Shown: in pieces, positions 29,275-48,607 of the stretch | Layout of the letters: each line of letters begins with the position of its first letter | Numbering within the stretch: position 1 is the stretch's first letter | Source: Methanofollis tationis | GTDB lineage: Archaea; Halobacteriota; Methanomicrobia; Methanomicrobiales; Methanofollaceae | Direction: 5' to 3' | NCBI RefSeq assembly: GCF_013377755.1 | Contig: NZ_JABXWR010000001.1 | Span: 1,375,104 to 1,439,103 of the forward strand | DNA length: 64,000 bases | Position numbers and translations under genes: made by a program | Notes under the pieces: generated by a model | Told to the model about the DNA's origin: nothing | The model's input: only the letters and a program-made list of their open reading frames with translations | Database searches by the model: none

Positions 29275-29426
29275 AGGATCCGATCAGCTCTCTATGCGTA
29301 TCGCCCCCCGGCAAAGAGTTAATGTAGCCGGCGGGCATATGTTCCTGCAGTCAGGTGATGGAGTTCACCTTAAAACCGCCTTTTGTGCTGATAACTCCTG
29401 CTTTTCCCGCGCATCGGAGAAGTATC

Positions 29427-31166
29427 ATGCAGCCGCCGTCACACCGCCCCGACCAGCTTGACGCCGCCATCAGCCGCGTCAGGGATCTCGGGCCCGCCTA
29501 TGCCCCATACGAGAAGCGCCTCCTCACCCTCGCCAGCCGCATGGCCGCAGGACGGTTTCACCTGGCCGTCCTCGGGCAGTTCAAGCGGGGCAAGAGCACC
29601 CTCTTAAACGCCCTCATCGGCGAGGACGTCCTGCCCAGTTCGGTGATCCCGCTGACCGCCGTCCCGACCTTCATCGTCCACGGGGACGGACGTTCGGTGC
29701 GGGTTTGTTTCCTGGACAAGACAGCGGACCGGGTCGTCCGGGCCGGGAGCGCCGGCGAGATGAAGCAGGCCCTCCTCGATTACGTCGCCGAAGACCGCAA
29801 CCCCAGGAACGAGAAGAGAGTCTCGTATGTCGAGATCACGCACCCGGCCCCTCTGCTCAGGGACGTCGTGCTCATCGACACCCCGGGTATCGGCTCCACT
29901 CACCGCCACAACACCGAGATGACGCTCAATTTCCTCTCCAGGTGCGACGCCGCCCTCTTCATGGTCTCGGCCGACCCGCCGATCACCGAGGCCGAGGTCG
30001 CCTTCCTCCGCGAGGTGCAGGGCACGATCTCCCGCCTCTTCTTCCTCCTCAACAAGGTCGACTACCTCACCCCCGAGGAGCAGGAGACCGCCGTCTCCTT
30101 CCTCCGGGGCGTACTCGCCGCGGAGATCGGCGGTGACGTGACGATTTTTCCGGTCTCGGCCAGAACCGCCCTGCGGGCGCGGCAGTCCGGTGACGAGGAG
30201 GCATGGCGGCAGAGCGGGCTTGGCGCCGTCCTCGACCACCTCGTCGCCTTTCTCGTGCACGAAAAGCAGGACGTCCTCCGTGAAGCGATGGGGCGGCGGG
30301 CCCGCGAGGTCCTGGCTGAACTGCAGTTCCAGATCGAACTGGCCCTGCGGGCGCGGGAGATCCCCCTCGAAGACCTCGAAGAGAAACGCCGTCTCTTTGA
30401 GGCGACGATCCGGGAGGCCGAAGAGAGGCGGCAGGAGATCACCGATGGGGTCGAGGGCGACCGCCGCCGGGTGACCGCATTCCTGGAGGCCGAGGCCGAA
30501 CGCCTCCGCACCACCGCCACGGCGCACCTGGTGGCGGTCGCCGCCGAAGCCTCGCCTGATCTCGACGAAAAAGCCGCCGCAGACGCTCTTGCGGCGTTCA
30601 TCCCGGACTACTTCGCCGGCCTCCTCGGGGAGACCACCGCCGCGGTCGACCGGGAACTCGCTGCCAGACTGCAACGCCACCGCGACCGGATCGACGATCT
30701 CGTCGAGACGGTGCGCAGGGAGGCCGCCGCCCTCTTCGCCCTCCCGTACCCCGACCGCCCGAAGGGCGAGGTCTACGTCATCGAACGCGAGCCCTTCTGG
30801 GTTTCGCGGAAACACTGGAGCAGCGTCCTCTCCCCGGTCGCCGCCGACCTCATCGAGCGCGCCCTCCCCCGCGGCATGCGGGAGCGGCGGATCAGGGAGC
30901 GCCTCTCCAGGCAGATCGAAAGCCTTGTCCTGCACAACGTCGAGAACCTCCGCTGGGCCACGCTCCAGAACATCGACGCCGCCTTCAGGCGGTTCCGCGA
31001 AGACAGGGAAACCGACCTGGACGAGGCGATCCAGGTCACCGGAGGGGCGATACGCGCCGCCTCCGAACGGCGGCGGGAAGAGATCGAGGAGACGGCAGAG
31101 GAGATCGGCCGCTTAAAACAGGCCCTGGCGATCGTCACGGAGAGCGATCAGACCACAACGAGGTGA
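29427..31166 (+). CDS. dynamin-like GTPase
   Basis: A 579-residue bacterial-type dynamin-like protein. GTPase motifs are in order: G1 VLGQFKRGKSTLLNAL near residue 50, G2 VIPLTAVPT near 74, G3 LIDTPGIGST near 152 and G4 LLNKVDYLT near 208. The remaining 300 residues are long charged helices, with a basic paddle-like part near residue 470. Such proteins remodel membranes, often at the inner face. The ATG at 29427 follows GGAGA. It ends seven bases before eno. Confidence 0.85.
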   Translation: MQPPSHRPDQLDAAISRVRDLGPAYAPYEKRLLTLASRMAAGRFHLAVLGQFKRGKSTLLNALIGEDVLPSSVIPLTAVPTFIVHGDGRSVRVCFLDKTADRVVRAGSAGEMKQALLDYVAEDRNPRNEKRVSYVEITHPAPLLRDVVLIDTPGIGSTHRHNTEMTLNFLSRCDAALFMVSADPPITEAEVAFLREVQGTISRLFFLLNKVDYLTPEEQETAVSFLRGVLAAEIGGDVTIFPVSARTALRARQSGDEEAWRQSGLGAVLDHLVAFLVHEKQDVLREAMGRRAREVLAELQFQIELALRAREIPLEDLEEKRRLFEATIREAEERRQEITDGVEGDRRRVTAFLEAEAERLRTTATAHLVAVAAEASPDLDEKAAADALAAFIPDYFAGLLGETTAAVDRELAARLQRHRDRIDDLVETVRREAAALFALPYPDRPKGEVYVIEREPFWVSRKHWSSVLSPVAADLIERALPRGMRERRIRERLSRQIESLVLHNVENLRWATLQNIDAAFRRFREDRETDLDEAIQVTGGAIRAASERRREEIEETAEEIGRLKQALAIVTESDQTTTR

Positions 31167-42798: not shown

Positions 42799-43398
42799 TT
42801 AGAAGGCCATGACGACGGGCGTCTCGACCTTGCTCTTGATGATCTCGACCCGGCGGACCGGGAAGATCGCCTTGACGACCTTGAAGGCCTCCTTGGCGAG
42901 GTCGCCGGCGACGACCATCTTGGAGAACTCCTCGAAGGACATCTGGGCCGCCTGCTCGGCGACGGTCTTCATGATCGCTCCCCGGATCGCGTGCACCTGG
43001 GAGTCGTTCGCCCGGTTGATCGTGAAGCAGGTGACGGTGAGGCGCACCTTCTTGTTGTCCTTTGTCGGGACAAGGATGATGGCGTCGATCCTGGAGGTCT
43101 TCCTCTTCACGAGGCCGCGCATGTAGTCGCGGGTGATCTCGTGCCCGACGAACTCGGTATATGCGGCGTCGCCGGCCACGCTGTTCACTTTAAAGCGCAT
43201 CTTGATGTGCTGCTTTGCATAGTCCTGTGAGATCTCGCCGAGCGTGGTCTGCATCACGCGCCCCATCACCTTGGACGGGTCGGCGGAGATCGTGTCGCCA
43301 ATATAGATCTTGCCGAAGGATTCAGGGCCATAGACCTTGAACCAGGACTTGGCCTTCCAGCCTTCGACCCTCTTTCCAACCTGTTTTCTCTTTGCCAT
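42799..43398 (-). CDS. rps3ae: 30S ribosomal protein S3Ae
   Basis: A 199-residue archaeal/eukaryotic-type small-subunit protein (eS1). It starts MAKRKQVGKRVEGWKAKSWF, has GRVMQTTLGEISQDYAKQHI near residue 45 and RDYMRGLVKRKTSRIDAIIL near 88, and ends in the VETPVVMAF tail. eS1 sits at the mRNA exit of the 30S platform. It is the last gene of the rps15-DHH-pcc1-rps3ae operon. Confidence 0.96.
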   Translation of the reverse strand: MAKRKQVGKRVEGWKAKSWFKVYGPESFGKIYIGDTISADPSKVMGRVMQTTLGEISQDYAKQHIKMRFKVNSVAGDAAYTEFVGHEITRDYMRGLVKRKTSRIDAIILVPTKDNKKVRLTVTCFTINRANDSQVHAIRGAIMKTVAEQAAQMSFEEFSKMVVAGDLAKEAFKVVKAIFPVRRVEIIKSKVETPVVMAF

Positions 43399-43436: not shown

Positions 43437-43694
43437 TCATCCTGCCAGATGCGTCATATCGTTCAGGCCGCCCGCTCGGCAAAGCGAGCACATCTCTTCT
43501 GCCATTGCGAGGTTCATCAGGTAATCGTCCACCGTTGCGGTTACCGTCCGCAGGGCGGCCCCCTCGATCGCAAAGACGACCGTACCGCCCTCGGCGGCGG
43601 TCGCCATGCCAGGGAGGTTGTCCGGGGCGAGTGAGCCGGCGACACACGTCGCAGAGGCGCTCTCCGTGCGGATCAGCCCTATAATCCCGATCAT
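43437..43694 (-). CDS. pcc1: KEOPS complex subunit Pcc1
   Basis: An 85-residue Pcc1, the dimerising subunit of KEOPS that, with Kae1, Bud32 and Cgi121, makes t6A37 on ANN-decoding tRNAs. Typical features are a long beta segment (TVVFAIEGAALRTVTATVDD) and the C-terminal helix YLMNLAMAEEMCSLC. The length is the family norm. Start ATG 43694 overlaps the DHH stop by 4 bp. The Sua5 enzyme providing the t6A precursor is also in this window. Confidence 0.8.
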   Translation of the reverse strand: MIGIIGLIRTESASATCVAGSLAPDNLPGMATAAEGGTVVFAIEGAALRTVTATVDDYLMNLAMAEEMCSLCRAGGLNDMTHLAG

Positions 43695-44908
43695 GCGGCG
43701 ATCCCCCTGAGAAAACCTTCCTCGAACTCGTCGATCCGGTCCAGGGGGATCCGGGCGCCGGCGCGGCTCCGGTGGCCGCCGCCTGACCCCCCAACCTCTG
43801 CCGCCAGGCGGCGGAGCAGGGCCTCGAGATCGAGATCGACCCCGGGAGGACAGCGCACCGAGACCTGCCAGCAGGTGCCGTTCTCCGCGACCACGGCCAC
43901 CGGCGCCGCCTGCCTGACGTCGTTTGCCAGGCAATCGGCAACGCCGCTCGCCGCCCCGGCGTCCGCGACCCGGTAGATCCGCCCGGTCTCCTCGACCCGC
44001 TCCGCCGCCATGACGGCGGCGAGCACCCGCGCCCGGTAGGCCCCGGCAACCTCCTCAGCCTCGGTGACGAGGTCTGGAGAGCGCAGGCAGACCGCAGCGG
44101 CAAGGCCGCCGCGGCCCTGCTGGCCGCAGCCGTCGATGACGGCCGCAAGGGTGCGGGCGTCGTCGATCACCTCGCGCTCGAGCCGGTAGCGCCCGCCGTA
44201 CAGGCGCGAAAAGACGGACGGCGCCGCCTCTTCTCCTGCCTCAAGCACCAGGAGGGAGAGGAGGAGATCGGTTGCGATCGCCTCCTCCCCGGCCGCCTGC
44301 TCAAGGATGCGGGTGATCTTATCCGCGTCCCCGCTGATACCGGGGATATACGGGGTGACGGCCGTCATGAGGGCTTCGCGGACCGAACCGCCCGGGAGGG
44401 CGAACCCTCTCTCCGGGACGACAAAGCCGTTTGCGATCCCTTCGTTGAGGATCTCCAGGTTCATCCCGGAAAATTTCTGGCCGTCCCCGAAGACCCCGAG
44501 CAGGGCGAGCCCTGCAAGGTCGCGGTTGTCCCCCATCTCCTGCGCCACCAGGTAGGCAGTTCCTGACGCCGTGAGTTCCTGCTCGCCGTCGATCCCGGCC
44601 AGGCGGGGGTTCACGTGGAAGGGCCCCTCGAAGTGCGGGACGTGGTGGTCGACGACCATCACGGTCCCGGGCAGATCGGCAAGGCCGGCGCCGAAATCGC
44701 AGAGCAGGGTCGAATCCGGGTGGACGATATCCTCTGTCCCGATGCCCGGCCTCACCCGCAGTCTGAACCTGCGGCCGGCGCGGAGCATCGCCTGACAGAG
44801 GATCGCCGCCGCGGCGATCCCGTCGGCGTCGTGGTGGGCGTAGACCTCGACAAAATCGGTGGCGAGGATCTGCGCGGCAACCCGTTCGGCAGCGGCCTGA
44901 ATGGACAT
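43691..44908 (-). CDS. DHH-family phosphoesterase (archaeal RecJ-like)
   Basis: A 405-residue protein of the archaeal RecJ/GAN-like group, phosphodiesterases that degrade single-stranded DNA or RNA and associate with the replisome. Metal motifs are VYAHHDADGIAAAAI near residue 23, LCDFGAG near 68, MVVDHHVPH near 84 and GVFGDGQKFSG near 140. C-terminal GGSGGGHRSRAGARIP is the DHHA1 Gly-Gly-His motif. It sits in the same ribosomal operon as in most archaea. Confidence 0.9.
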   Translation of the reverse strand: MSIQAAAERVAAQILATDFVEVYAHHDADGIAAAAILCQAMLRAGRRFRLRVRPGIGTEDIVHPDSTLLCDFGAGLADLPGTVMVVDHHVPHFEGPFHVNPRLAGIDGEQELTASGTAYLVAQEMGDNRDLAGLALLGVFGDGQKFSGMNLEILNEGIANGFVVPERGFALPGGSVREALMTAVTPYIPGISGDADKITRILEQAAGEEAIATDLLLSLLVLEAGEEAAPSVFSRLYGGRYRLEREVIDDARTLAAVIDGCGQQGRGGLAAAVCLRSPDLVTEAEEVAGAYRARVLAAVMAAERVEETGRIYRVADAGAASGVADCLANDVRQAAPVAVVAENGTCWQVSVRCPPGVDLDLEALLRRLAAEVGGSGGGHRSRAGARIPLDRIDEFEEGFLRGIAA

Positions 44909-44911
44909 GAC

Positions 44912-45370
44912 TTATCTGGAGAGGAGAATCTCGGCAGTCTCCGGCTTGTAGGTCCAGTCCTTCGCGAGCTTGCCGCTCGACCGGTAATACTTCACCAGGC
45001 GGCGCACCTTCGACTCGGTGAGCTGGAGCTGGCGCTTGTTGTGGAGATCCTTTTTGTTTTCAGCAAGGTGCTTGCGCATGCCGAGCGCCTTTGCGATGAG
45101 GTTCCTGAGGTCCTCGGGGATCTCCTGCTCGAGTCCGTTCTGGCTGAGGATCTCGCCGATCTTCTTCCCGGCCACGAGTTTCACGTCGGGAATGCCGTAC
45201 TTGTCTCTCAGGACGAACCCGATCTCGCTGCTGGATTTGCCTTTTTTACGGAGATCGACAACAACCTTCTCTGCCTCGTCCGCCGAGATGCCGGTCCATT
45301 CCGGTGCCTCGGTGCGGTACGGTGCGACTGAGCCGGACTTGCCTCTCCGCCGTGCATGCATTCGTGCCAT
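44912..45370 (-). CDS. rps15: 30S ribosomal protein S15
   Basis: A 152-residue archaeal uS15, longer than the bacterial form by an N-terminal extension ([20 protein letters not shown]). Core RNA-binding residues lie in [20 protein letters not shown] near residue 107. It binds the 16S rRNA central domain three-way junction. First gene of the operon, preceded by a 115-base leader with a striking fold. GAGGT lies six bases upstream of the start. Confidence 0.96.
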
Positions 45371-45485
45371 ATTCTACCTCATATGACAGAGTAAGTCCAG
45401 AAAAGAGCAGTACTGCTACTGACTTCCCTGTAATCCCGAGCCACTTCGGGCCGTGCCGGAACGGCACGTCGGACTTACATCGGCC
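45371..45485 (-). ncRNA. candidate multi-branch leader RNA of the rps15 operon
   Basis: Four helices can be drawn on the minus strand. P1 closes the structure: GTAAGTCC (45478-45471) with GGACTTAC (45398-45391). Inside it: P2 CGTGCCG-TTC-CGGCACG (45468-45452), P3 CCCGA-AGTGGC-TCGGG (45450-45435) and P4 AGCAG-TA-CTGCT (45417-45406). All arms are perfectly complementary. The ribosome site and start codon follow P1 directly. S15 binds three-way junctions, so autogenous control is plausible; this is inference. Confidence 0.6.
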
Positions 45486-45503
45486 AGCACATAAAAGTGC
45501 TAT

Positions 45504-45513: not shown

Positions 45514-45577
45514 CGCTCCTCGTTCTTAAGGTTGACGGCAGAACAAAAGCGAAACCTTTAATTTCCCTCCCGAAAGT

Positions 45578-48500
45578 ATGCCCCATAAGCATACCCCCAT
45601 GATACCCCCCTTTCCCTCGCTCCGCCTCCCGGAGCGCTGGCAGATTCCCGTCCTGGCCGTCGCCGGAGTGGGAACGCTGGCGGCGACCACAATGGCGGCC
45701 GCAGCCGGAGTTACTGCCGTTGTCGCCCAGATCCTCTATATCCCGATCATCCTGGCGGTCGTCTGGTACCGCTGGCGCGGGCTTGCGGTGGTGGTCGCCA
45801 TTACCGCGGCGTATATCCCGATCCTTGGATGGTTAACCGGGTTCGCCTTCCCGGTATTCCCCGAAGCGGTCGCCCGCGCCGGTGTGATGGTCGCCGTCGC
45901 CATGGTGCTCGCGGCGCTCTCGTCCCACGTGAGCGCCCTTGCCCGCGACTATCCCGGCATCTTCCAGCACGCCGGCGGCGGATACATCATCGTCGATCAG
46001 CGGTCGCTCGCCGTTCTGGACCTGAACCTGACGGCGGCAGAGATGATCGGGTTTGCGCCGTCCGAGGTCGTGGGGCGCTCTTTCGTCTCCCTGTTTGCCG
46101 ATCCCGCAACGGCCGAAGGGACGGCAGAGGCGCTGAAGGCCGGGCAGGACCTCGACGTCCTCGAAGCGGCGCTCACGACGCGGGGCGGCGGCGTCCGCTG
46201 GGTCAGGATCGTCTCGGGTTCGCTCCCCGAAGAGCGGGCGGTCTGCACCCTCCTGGACATCTCCCGGCAGAAAGAGGACGAACGGACGATGAACGCCCTT
46301 GCCAGGCTCGCCGGGGAGAGCCCTGACCCGGTCCTCAGGATCGGACGGGGAGGGCAGATCCTCTATGCAAACGAGGCGGCGATGGCGGTCATCGGGGCCG
46401 AAGCGCCCGGGGAGAAGAGTGAAACACGGGCGGCACTCTCCCGCGCCGCCGCGGAGGCGACGGCCACCGGCGACCAGGTCGAACTCGAAGTCCAGGTCGG
46501 CGACGGGATCTTCCTGATCACGGTCTTCCCGATCGAGGGCGAGGACTACGTCAATCTCTACGGGAAGGATATCACCGGGAGAAAGGCGGCTGAGACGGCG
46601 ATCCGGCTGAACGAACAGCGTCTCGAAGCCCTGCTGAGGCTGGACCGGATGTACGACGCCCCCTTAAAGGCGATCACCGACTACGCCCTTTCCTGCGCCG
46701 TATCGATGACCGGGAGCGAGCACGGGTATTTCGCCTTCCTGGACCCGGAGGAGCGGACGCTCACGATCCAGTCCTGGTCGGACCGGGCGGTTGCGGCCTG
46801 CCGGGTGGACCACCCGAAGACCGCGTATCCTCTCGCCGAGACCGGGCTCTGGGGTGAACCGGTGCGGCAGCGCCGCACGGTGATCCTCAACGACTACGCC
46901 GCCCCCTTGCCGTTGAAGAAGGGCACCCCGCCGGGCCACCCGGCGATCAGGCGGTTTTTAAGCGTCCCGGTCTTCGAGGGAGAACGGATCGTGGCGGTGG
47001 CCGGGGTGATCAACAAGGCCGCCCCCTATGACGAGGACGACGCCCGCCAGTTCTCCCTGCTGATGACCGGGATGTGGGGGCTGGTCAGGAGGAAACAATA
47101 TTCCGACGACCTGAAGCGCTCGGAGGCCCTCTACCGCACGGTCTTCGAGGCGACCGGGACGGCGACGATGATCCTGGACGGCGACGGCACGGTCACCCAC
47201 GCCAACGCGCGGTTCAGGCATTTCGGCTACGACCCCGCTGATATCGTCGGCCGGAGCGCCTGGGCGACCATCTTCTCCGGGCCGGTACACGATCTCAGCG
47301 GGCAGTACCACCAGATGCGCCGCAACGGTGCAGACAACCTGCCGCCGATATACGAGGGAACAGTCAGGGACGCCGATGGGAAGGAGCGCGACGCCCTGGT
47401 GACCGCCGCCATGATCCCGGAGACCGACCTGAGCGTGGTCTCGGTGATGGACATCACCCCCCTGAAGGAGGCTGAGCGGGAGATTGCCGCCAGAAACCGC
47501 GAACTCGCCGCCTTTGCGGAGGTCTCGGCGATCACTTCGTCGCTTCTGCCGCTCCCCGAGCGTCTGGACGCCGCCCTGGCAAAAGTGCTGGACCTCATGG
47601 ACTTTGAGGCCGGGGCGATCTACCTCTTCGAGGGGGAGGGAGATGTCGGCGTCCGCGTCAGCCAGCGCTGGCCGGCCGATATGGAGGCGCCATACGAGAT
47701 CAGGCGGCTGGCAGTCCCCTCAGAACCGCAGTATTCGTCAGACCGGCCTGAAGGGGTCCCGCCGCATATCAGGGAAAATTTTGCGTCCTGCGCCTCGATC
47801 CCGCTGAAGGTCGGGGACGAGATCCCCGGCACCCTGAACATGGCGACGCGAAGGGAGCACGTCTTCACGACCGGGGAGCGGGAGTTCCTGGAGACCTCGG
47901 GGCGGGCGATCGGGGGGGCGGTGCTGCGGGCGCGGTTCAGCGAAGGGCTGGAGCGGGCGAACGCCGACGCCAACCTCTACCTGGATATCATGATGCACGA
48001 CATCAACAACGCCAACACGGTGGCGGCGGGCTACTGCAGCCTGCTCCTGCCCAGGCTCGCCGGGAAGGAGCACCTGATGGCGAAGAAGGTGCTCTCCGGG
48101 GTCAGGCAGAGCATCGAGATCATCATGAACGTCTCGACCTACCGCTCCCTGAGCCAGCGGGCGACGAGGGTCGAGCCGGTGCCGCTGGACGCCGTCATCA
48201 GAGGCGAGATCTCCCGGTTCTCCGAACTCGATATCAGGTACGCGGGGACGGATGCCGTTGTGATGGCCGACGACCTCCTCTCCGAGGTGTTCACGAACCT
48301 GATCGGGAATGCCGGGAAGTTCGGGGGGCCTGAGGTGACCGTCTGGATTGCGGTGGCGAAGGAGGACGACACCGTTGCGGTGACCGTGGCCGACAACGGC
48401 CCCGGCATCCCGGACGACCAGAAGGAGAACGTCTTCGGGCGGTTTGTGCGGAACGCCCCGCGGGTCTCGGGCAAGGGGCTCGGGCTCTGGATCTGCCGGA

Positions 48501-48607
48501 CCCTCGCCGAGCGCTACGGCGGGAGCATCACGGCCGGGGACCGCGTGCCGGGCAGACCCGGGGATGGTGCGGCGATCACCCTGGTGCTGCGGCGGGCTGA
48601 GGATTAA
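45578..48607 (+). CDS. membrane-anchored multi-PAS/GAF sensor histidine kinase
   Basis: A 1009-residue sensor kinase. Hydrophobic helices at about 20-115 form a MASE-like membrane part, then PAS (125-235), PAS (240-345), GAF (350-510), PAS (515-645), GAF (655-790), the phosphoacceptor helix and a HATPase domain (880-1005). The phosphoacceptor is His807 in LYLDIMMHDINNANTVAAGY, the HDINN variant common in methanogens. ATP-binding boxes: LIGNAGKFG, VADNGPGIPDD and GKGLGLWICRTLAERYGG. No response regulator is adjacent, so the partner is elsewhere. ATG 45599 is a possible shorter start. Confidence 0.9.
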   Translation: MPHKHTPMIPPFPSLRLPERWQIPVLAVAGVGTLAATTMAAAAGVTAVVAQILYIPIILAVVWYRWRGLAVVVAITAAYIPILGWLTGFAFPVFPEAVARAGVMVAVAMVLAALSSHVSALARDYPGIFQHAGGGYIIVDQRSLAVLDLNLTAAEMIGFAPSEVVGRSFVSLFADPATAEGTAEALKAGQDLDVLEAALTTRGGGVRWVRIVSGSLPEERAVCTLLDISRQKEDERTMNALARLAGESPDPVLRIGRGGQILYANEAAMAVIGAEAPGEKSETRAALSRAAAEATATGDQVELEVQVGDGIFLITVFPIEGEDYVNLYGKDITGRKAAETAIRLNEQRLEALLRLDRMYDAPLKAITDYALSCAVSMTGSEHGYFAFLDPEERTLTIQSWSDRAVAACRVDHPKTAYPLAETGLWGEPVRQRRTVILNDYAAPLPLKKGTPPGHPAIRRFLSVPVFEGERIVAVAGVINKAAPYDEDDARQFSLLMTGMWGLVRRKQYSDDLKRSEALYRTVFEATGTATMILDGDGTVTHANARFRHFGYDPADIVGRSAWATIFSGPVHDLSGQYHQMRRNGADNLPPIYEGTVRDADGKERDALVTAAMIPETDLSVVSVMDITPLKEAEREIAARNRELAAFAEVSAITSSLLPLPERLDAALAKVLDLMDFEAGAIYLFEGEGDVGVRVSQRWPADMEAPYEIRRLAVPSEPQYSSDRPEGVPPHIRENFASCASIPLKVGDEIPGTLNMATRREHVFTTGEREFLETSGRAIGGAVLRARFSEGLERANADANLYLDIMMHDINNANTVAAGYCSLLLPRLAGKEHLMAKKVLSGVRQSIEIIMNVSTYRSLSQRATRVEPVPLDAVIRGEISRFSELDIRYAGTDAVVMADDLLSEVFTNLIGNAGKFGGPEVTVWIAVAKEDDTVAVTVADNGPGIPDDQKENVFGRFVRNAPRVSGKGLGLWICRTLAERYGGSITAGDRVPGRPGDGAAITLVLRRAED

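Follow-up and report, generated by a model that had tools for sequence, protein, structure and literature searches.

The rps15 operon and its catalogued leader

The window, i.e. the whole stretch of 64,000 nucleotides from Methanofollis tationis analysed here, carries on its minus strand an operon whose first gene is rps15 (44912-45370; PF08069 and PF00312), encoding the presumed autoregulator. The same operon contains a gene for a DHH/DHHA1 (RecJ-like) protein (43691-44908, Pfam match) and rps3ae (42799-43398, PF01015). An earlier note on this DNA had named the operon rps15-DHH-pcc1-rps3ae; rps15, DHH/DHHA1 and rps3ae are confirmed by Pfam, but the small ORF called pcc1 has no Pfam match. All leader elements described below lie on the minus strand as well, and a Shine-Dalgarno-like GAGGU is read from the sequence at 45376-45380.

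The region directly upstream of rps15, which starts at 45370 and is followed by the DHH and S3Ae genes, matches the Rfam family RF03137, "S15-Methanomicrobia ribosomal protein leader", at 45501-45430 (-) with 70.6 bits (cmscan, Rfam 15; gathering cut-off 42.2 bits). The match is full-length (model 1-74). The window shows no match to RF03143 (S15-Halobacteria) at the gathering threshold, where overlapping matches of the same clan are reported once and the best here is RF03137. The family is present in 209 of 232 genomes of the class. It was predicted by Eckert and Weinberg in 2020 with S15 as the likely ligand and with rps15, recJ and rps3ae as the regulated genes; they likened it to the 16S junction (rRNA mimicry), and their main text mentions poly-U stretches after the motif (PMC7247131). 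The leader is thus an S15 ribosomal protein leader of the known family RF03137 and is not new, and its binding of S15 is a published prediction. A search of the available literature on the RF03137 leader found no paper later than that of Eckert and Weinberg. The idea of an undescribed leader, raised in the earlier note, is rejected by RF03137 and PMC7247131; an S15-type autoregulatory leader had been inferred there correctly, but archaeal equivalents had been described already by Eckert and Weinberg (RF03137 and RF03143).

The 5' end of the mRNA was predicted from conserved spacing. In 96 aligned leaders a T/T/A peak is found at -29/-28/-27 relative to the G of AGCAC, corresponding in the window to T45529, T45528 and A45527 of a predicted TATA box CTTAAGA (45524-45530), and an element of this type keeps a fixed spacing upstream of the AGCAC hairpin in the 96 homologues. 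Together with base conservation, this TATA spacing places the predicted transcription start at the A of AGCAC (45501), the first base of the RF03137 match; the base at position -1 to the G is A in 74 of the 96 leaders, with C before it in 50. With the start predicted at about 45501, the leader is probably about 131 nt long with a further 5' hairpin (45501-45486), and probably does not begin at 45485 as had been supposed. The earlier note had looked for contrary evidence in a start mapped inside its outer helix; the predicted start falls upstream of that helix. TTTATATATA, just before the 5' hairpin, was considered as the promoter, in which case this hairpin would be DNA only. It was rejected because the conserved element of fixed spacing is CTTAAGA further upstream, and because relatives of the same genus (L070, L074 and L077) lack the proximal TATATA. 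A gene for a PAS/GAF histidine kinase (45578-48607, +) is transcribed divergently; some 75 nt separate its beginning from the predicted rps15 start, so that two promoters share a short intergenic region.

Two helices competing for one strand

Three strands of eight bases are central to the leader. Strand a, GUAAGUCC (45471-45478), is identical in 125 of 140 leaders. In the catalogued RF03137 fold, a (45478-45471) pairs with strand b, GGGAUUAC (45437-45430), which forms the 3' end of the Rfam model and closes the proposed rRNA-like three-way junction for S15; b reads GGGATTAC in 132 of the 140 leaders and GGGATTGC in the other 8. Strand c, GGACUUAC (45391-45398), lies 31 nt past the end of the model and competes with b for a. 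The helix of GUAAGUCC 45478-45471 with GGACUUAC 45398-45391 is the 8-bp outer helix exactly as drawn in the earlier note. Since all eight bases of a are used in both a:b and a:c, the two helices exclude each other.

The closed fold with a:c is both the MFE and the centroid structure of 45485-45371 (-46.3 kcal/mol; z = -3.09 against dinucleotide shuffles, 2 of 200 of which are as good). It encloses hairpins at 45468-45452 (7 bp), 45450-45435 (5 bp) and 45429-45399. The three hairpins had been described as perfect and all helices as uninterrupted, which does not apply to the third, consisting of 7 bp and 5 bp with a small internal loop in the MFE structure. The first, P2 (CGUGCCG-UUC-CGGCACG, 45452-45468), is supported by the fold and belongs to the Rfam junction, and all five of its pairs tested change on both sides. 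The second, P3 (CCCGA/UCGGG, 45435-45450), occurs in the closed fold and uses the GGG of b, a region paired differently by Rfam. When each helix was enforced in turn, a:c had a median advantage of 5.4 kcal/mol over a:b and was the more stable in 91 of 94 leaders; for the leader in the window the margin is about 4.3 kcal/mol. All energies were computed without protein or tertiary contacts. The multi-branch fold of the earlier note is real, but it is a competitor using the same 5' strand and not the proposed S15-binding fold.

Conservation of c was assessed in leaders from 37 genera and six families, of which 140 out of 141 could be extracted. To avoid circularity, the position of c was set by its similarity to the c consensus, and complementarity to a played no part in this. 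Of the 140 leaders, 136 keep at least six of the eight a:c pairs and 127 at least seven, and the six families of the class are all represented; these counts include as paired six leaders in which c has a bulge of one base. Among 99 distinct leaders, 75% have a Watson-Crick run of at least six bases complementary to a in the interval from b to the start codon, compared with 12% of dinucleotide shuffles; the coding regions, examined over their first 100 nt, have no such run. The a:c helix had been drawn without knowledge of the catalogued fold and proves to be kept by homologous leaders; it is a second conserved predicted structure, in competition with the catalogued one proposed for protein binding. 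In L052, L053 and L080 (genera g31 and g26) the junction is intact and c is not recognisable, a possible loss of the switch. Five leaders of genus g38 (L064-L068) are divergent, with P0, P1b and c (P0 and P1b are described below) differing in sequence; their c is only partly complementary to a, and an extra CCG/CGG pairing closes the helix. A P1b-like helix is possible there in several registers and was left out of the counts.

Over ten pairs including two flanking ones, a:c is 86% paired in 59 distinct leaders. Column-wise, it shows 14 double-change cells (58 of 500 shuffles as high) and a covariation score reached by 15 of 500 shuffles. The weakness of this covariation reflects how little a varies, presumably owing to constraint by S15; a:b is nearly invariant as well and conserved in all leaders. 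Some compensatory changes, to which the earlier note had looked for support, are found in the outer helix at the fifth base of a, which forms G-C, G-U and A-U pairs with c, though column-wise they are weak. Wherever this base is A, c has U opposite it (9 of 9), though C is commoner at that position of c (70 of 92), and about five changes of the two bases (a5/c4) are placed on the rps15 tree; b cannot explain the co-occurrence, since a:b has a mismatch at this base. Tree-based sign tests of a5/c4 and of P1b had too few independent pairs.

Further evidence comes from swapping strands between genera, a comparison of own with swapped duplexes in which bulges and flanks are permitted. When a and c come from the same leader, their duplex is better than a swapped one by 1.84 kcal/mol (z -5.5, 0 of 2000, 29 of 35 genera), a significance that is an upper bound because relatedness among genera is ignored. 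Control segment pairs show no effect, and the flanks of a and c co-vary too (z -2.7, 10 of 2000). By the same test the arms of the 5'-terminal hairpin P0 (AGCAC...GUGCU, 45486-45501), which is part of the Rfam match, co-vary (z -6.1, 0 of 2000), and the distance from P0 to a ranges from 20 to 42 nt among leaders. P0 as a DNA operator was rejected on the ground of this varying distance and of the co-variation of its arms.

Downstream elements and the proposed switch

Between b and c lies a terminator-like hairpin T (45399-45429), supported by the fold and by co-variation of its arms between genera (z -3.7), which ends in a UUUU tract (45401-45404). In 89 of 99 leaders the 16 nt preceding c include a tract of at least four U, compared with about 13% of shuffles. 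In archaea one U4 by itself terminates weakly; aCPSF1 binding took a minimum of two such tracts, and a hairpin is not strictly needed for termination (PMC8716108). In four leaders of genus g9 (L115, L116, L119 and L120) the loop of T is enlarged by some 45-50 nt of inserted sequence that forms hairpins of its own, and the arms, the U-tract and c are kept.

The 5' arm of T is shared with a proposed outer helix P1b, formed by CUGRC just before a and GUCAG just after b. In the window these are CUGGC (45483-45487), of which two bases are shared with the 3' arm of P0, and GUCAG (45419-45423). P1b is paired in 95-97% of cells and gives z -3.7 in the genus swap, and it is scarcely predicted from energy alone. 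We propose that P1b would extend a:b past a purine-rich internal loop, by analogy with h22 of the genome's own 16S rRNA (GGGAUCGGGAGAGGUGAG / CUCACCAGAACGACUCCGAC). On rRNA, the site of S15 includes a second contact, roughly one turn away from the junction (PMC4684408). When h22 is set beside the leader, matching GGGAU and CCGAC strands and purine-rich loops are seen; a sequence-only alignment of the leader to this 16S was not significant and failed to find h22.

The helices a:b and a:c, their conservation and their mutual exclusion are established at the level of sequence, and the leader probably works as a two-state switch. We consider it rather probable that it is an S15 autoregulatory leader with two exclusive folds, controlled by S15, whose competing helix has been overlooked. 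The binding fold with a:b would form first, as the RNA is made, and its three-way junction would copy the h20-h21-h22 site of S15 in 16S rRNA; P1b (CUGGC:GUCAG) may extend it and break the terminator-like hairpin. Surplus S15 would trap this fold and lower the expression of rps15-DHH-rps3ae. With little S15 present, c would displace b and the operon would be expressed, the closed fold removing the junction and enclosing P2, P3 and T. The cost of opening the closed fold would let S15 bind its own mRNA only once the rRNA is saturated. S15 binding, the direction of control and the output step are inferred. As the output, early 3'-end formation at the conserved U-tract appears preferable to a block of the ribosome site in this order, because the U-tract is conserved and co-variation with the ribosome site is absent. 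Strand c cannot directly control termination at the U-tract, as it is transcribed after it. Exposure of the U-tract as a fold-dependent change was rejected, there being no consistent difference between the folds.

It is distinctly unlikely, in our judgement, that only the catalogued a:b helix matters, with c conserved because, for example, it binds a protein or belongs to a terminator, and its match to a arising as a by-product. The conservation of a:b in all leaders, its fit to the Rfam model and to the published rRNA mimicry, and the weak column-wise covariation of a:c agree with such a view; against it are the co-variation of a and c in the genus swap (z -5.5) and of their flanks (z -2.7, 10 of 2000), the co-occurrence at a5/c4, and an analogous competitor of different sequence in Halobacteria. 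Action on translation, where the S15-bound fold would free strands that mask the Shine-Dalgarno or S15 would block the ribosome, seems unlikely. The ribosome site lies 10-20 nt from c in several families, as in the window, and the competitor helix of Halobacteria ends 9-12 nt before AUG, but c is 66-217 nt from AUG in family f3 and part of f5. The predicted opening of the Shine-Dalgarno in the binding fold is lower in 30 of 94 leaders, as this explanation would have it, but it is higher in 10 and hardly changed in the rest. No leader element co-varies with the ribosome-site region, and masking of the Shine-Dalgarno by leader strands was rejected on these two results.

The U-tract also allows the reverse of the proposed control, a bacterial-style attenuation in which T and UUUU terminate when there is little S15 and S15 prevents this through P1b, activating the operon. 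T does resemble an intrinsic terminator and shares its 5' arm with P1b, but positive feedback is unusual for a ribosomal protein, archaeal termination is not strictly hairpin-dependent (PMC8716108), and U4 is absent from some leaders; we hold this to be quite improbable. A still different view would make another product of the operon, e.g. S3Ae, the regulator. The operon encodes two ribosomal proteins, and S15 was assigned by Eckert and Weinberg from precedent ("Prior") and rRNA similarity (PMC7247131), yet the junction resembles the S15 site of 16S rRNA, both as published and in our own reading of the 16S, and rps15 comes first in the operon; we consider a regulator other than S15 very improbable.

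The Halobacteria family and other S15 leaders

The sister family RF03143 is present in 144 of 146 Halobacteria genomes, and its model leaves a conserved 5' GGGAA unpaired. The control genome of Haloferax volcanii, a laboratory species amenable to genetics, carries RF03143. In a sample of 59 distinct leaders from 45 genera, the 5' sequence GGGAAC.GCAC..CCGCA is complementary to a downstream GCGG..GUGC.GUUCC, and in 53 of 57 the resulting competitor helix stops 9-12 nt short of AUG. Duplex energies average -28.5 in the leaders and -15.2 in shuffles, 58 of the 59 leaders do better than 95% of their own shuffles, and the genus swap gives z -3.5 (0 of 2000). The GGGAA/GUUCC complementarity is seen in the Halobacteria rps15 leaders L194-L203 and L258-L327. 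From the TATA spacing, the transcription start is predicted at GGGAA. A putative competitor strand outside the Rfam model is common to both families, in which its sequence and position differ, and its pairing would explain the conserved unpaired GGGAA of the RF03143 model.

RF03143 resembles the leader in the window in its predicted ligand, related junction, operon and downstream competitor of a 5' strand, but its helix order is different and its competitor also pairs with the mRNA 5' end (GGGAA), directly before AUG. Its two folds are nearly equal in energy, unlike those of RF03137, with a median difference of 0.35 kcal/mol and the binding fold dominant in 39 of 59 leaders, and a U-tract is not a general feature of the Halobacteria leaders. 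One output mechanism may not serve both classes, since the fold energies and the U-tract differ in Halobacteria, where the helix at the start codon points to translation or the 5' end as the output. We lean slightly towards the view that the S15 leaders of Methanomicrobia and Halobacteria are protein-controlled two-state switches in which a downstream competitor withdraws the rRNA-like site, the competitor of Halobacteria tying the mRNA 5' end to the bases before the start codon.

RF03137 itself is the same RNA as the leader in the window, with P0, a:b, P2 and P3 before rps15-recJ-rps3ae, but its model stops at b and is without P1b, the terminator-like hairpin and c. Bacterial rpsO leaders (Geobacillus, Thermus and E. 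coli) mediate S15 autoregulation by mimicking the three-way junction and/or the GU/GC motif of 16S h22, and that of E. coli uses a pseudoknot (PMC4684408). They are proven experimentally, whereas the control exerted by the leader in the window is predicted from sequence; the comparison is one of proposed function, not of sequence or structural homology. As far as the available literature and Rfam show, the conserved competitor helix is new; the supplement of PMC7247131 may mention part of it. Only a small number of cis-acting RNA regulators have been described in archaea. The conserved competitor strand offers a concrete, testable switching mechanism for S15 leaders already described, and both Rfam models, RF03137 and RF03143, are cut short at the 3' end.

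Elsewhere in the window, a fluoride riboswitch (RF01734, 29345-29407, +, 49.7 bits) lies directly before a gene for a 603-aa dynamin-like GTPase (29355-31166) and overlaps the first codons of its longest ORF reading. A dynamin-like GTPase is an unusual downstream gene for a fluoride riboswitch.
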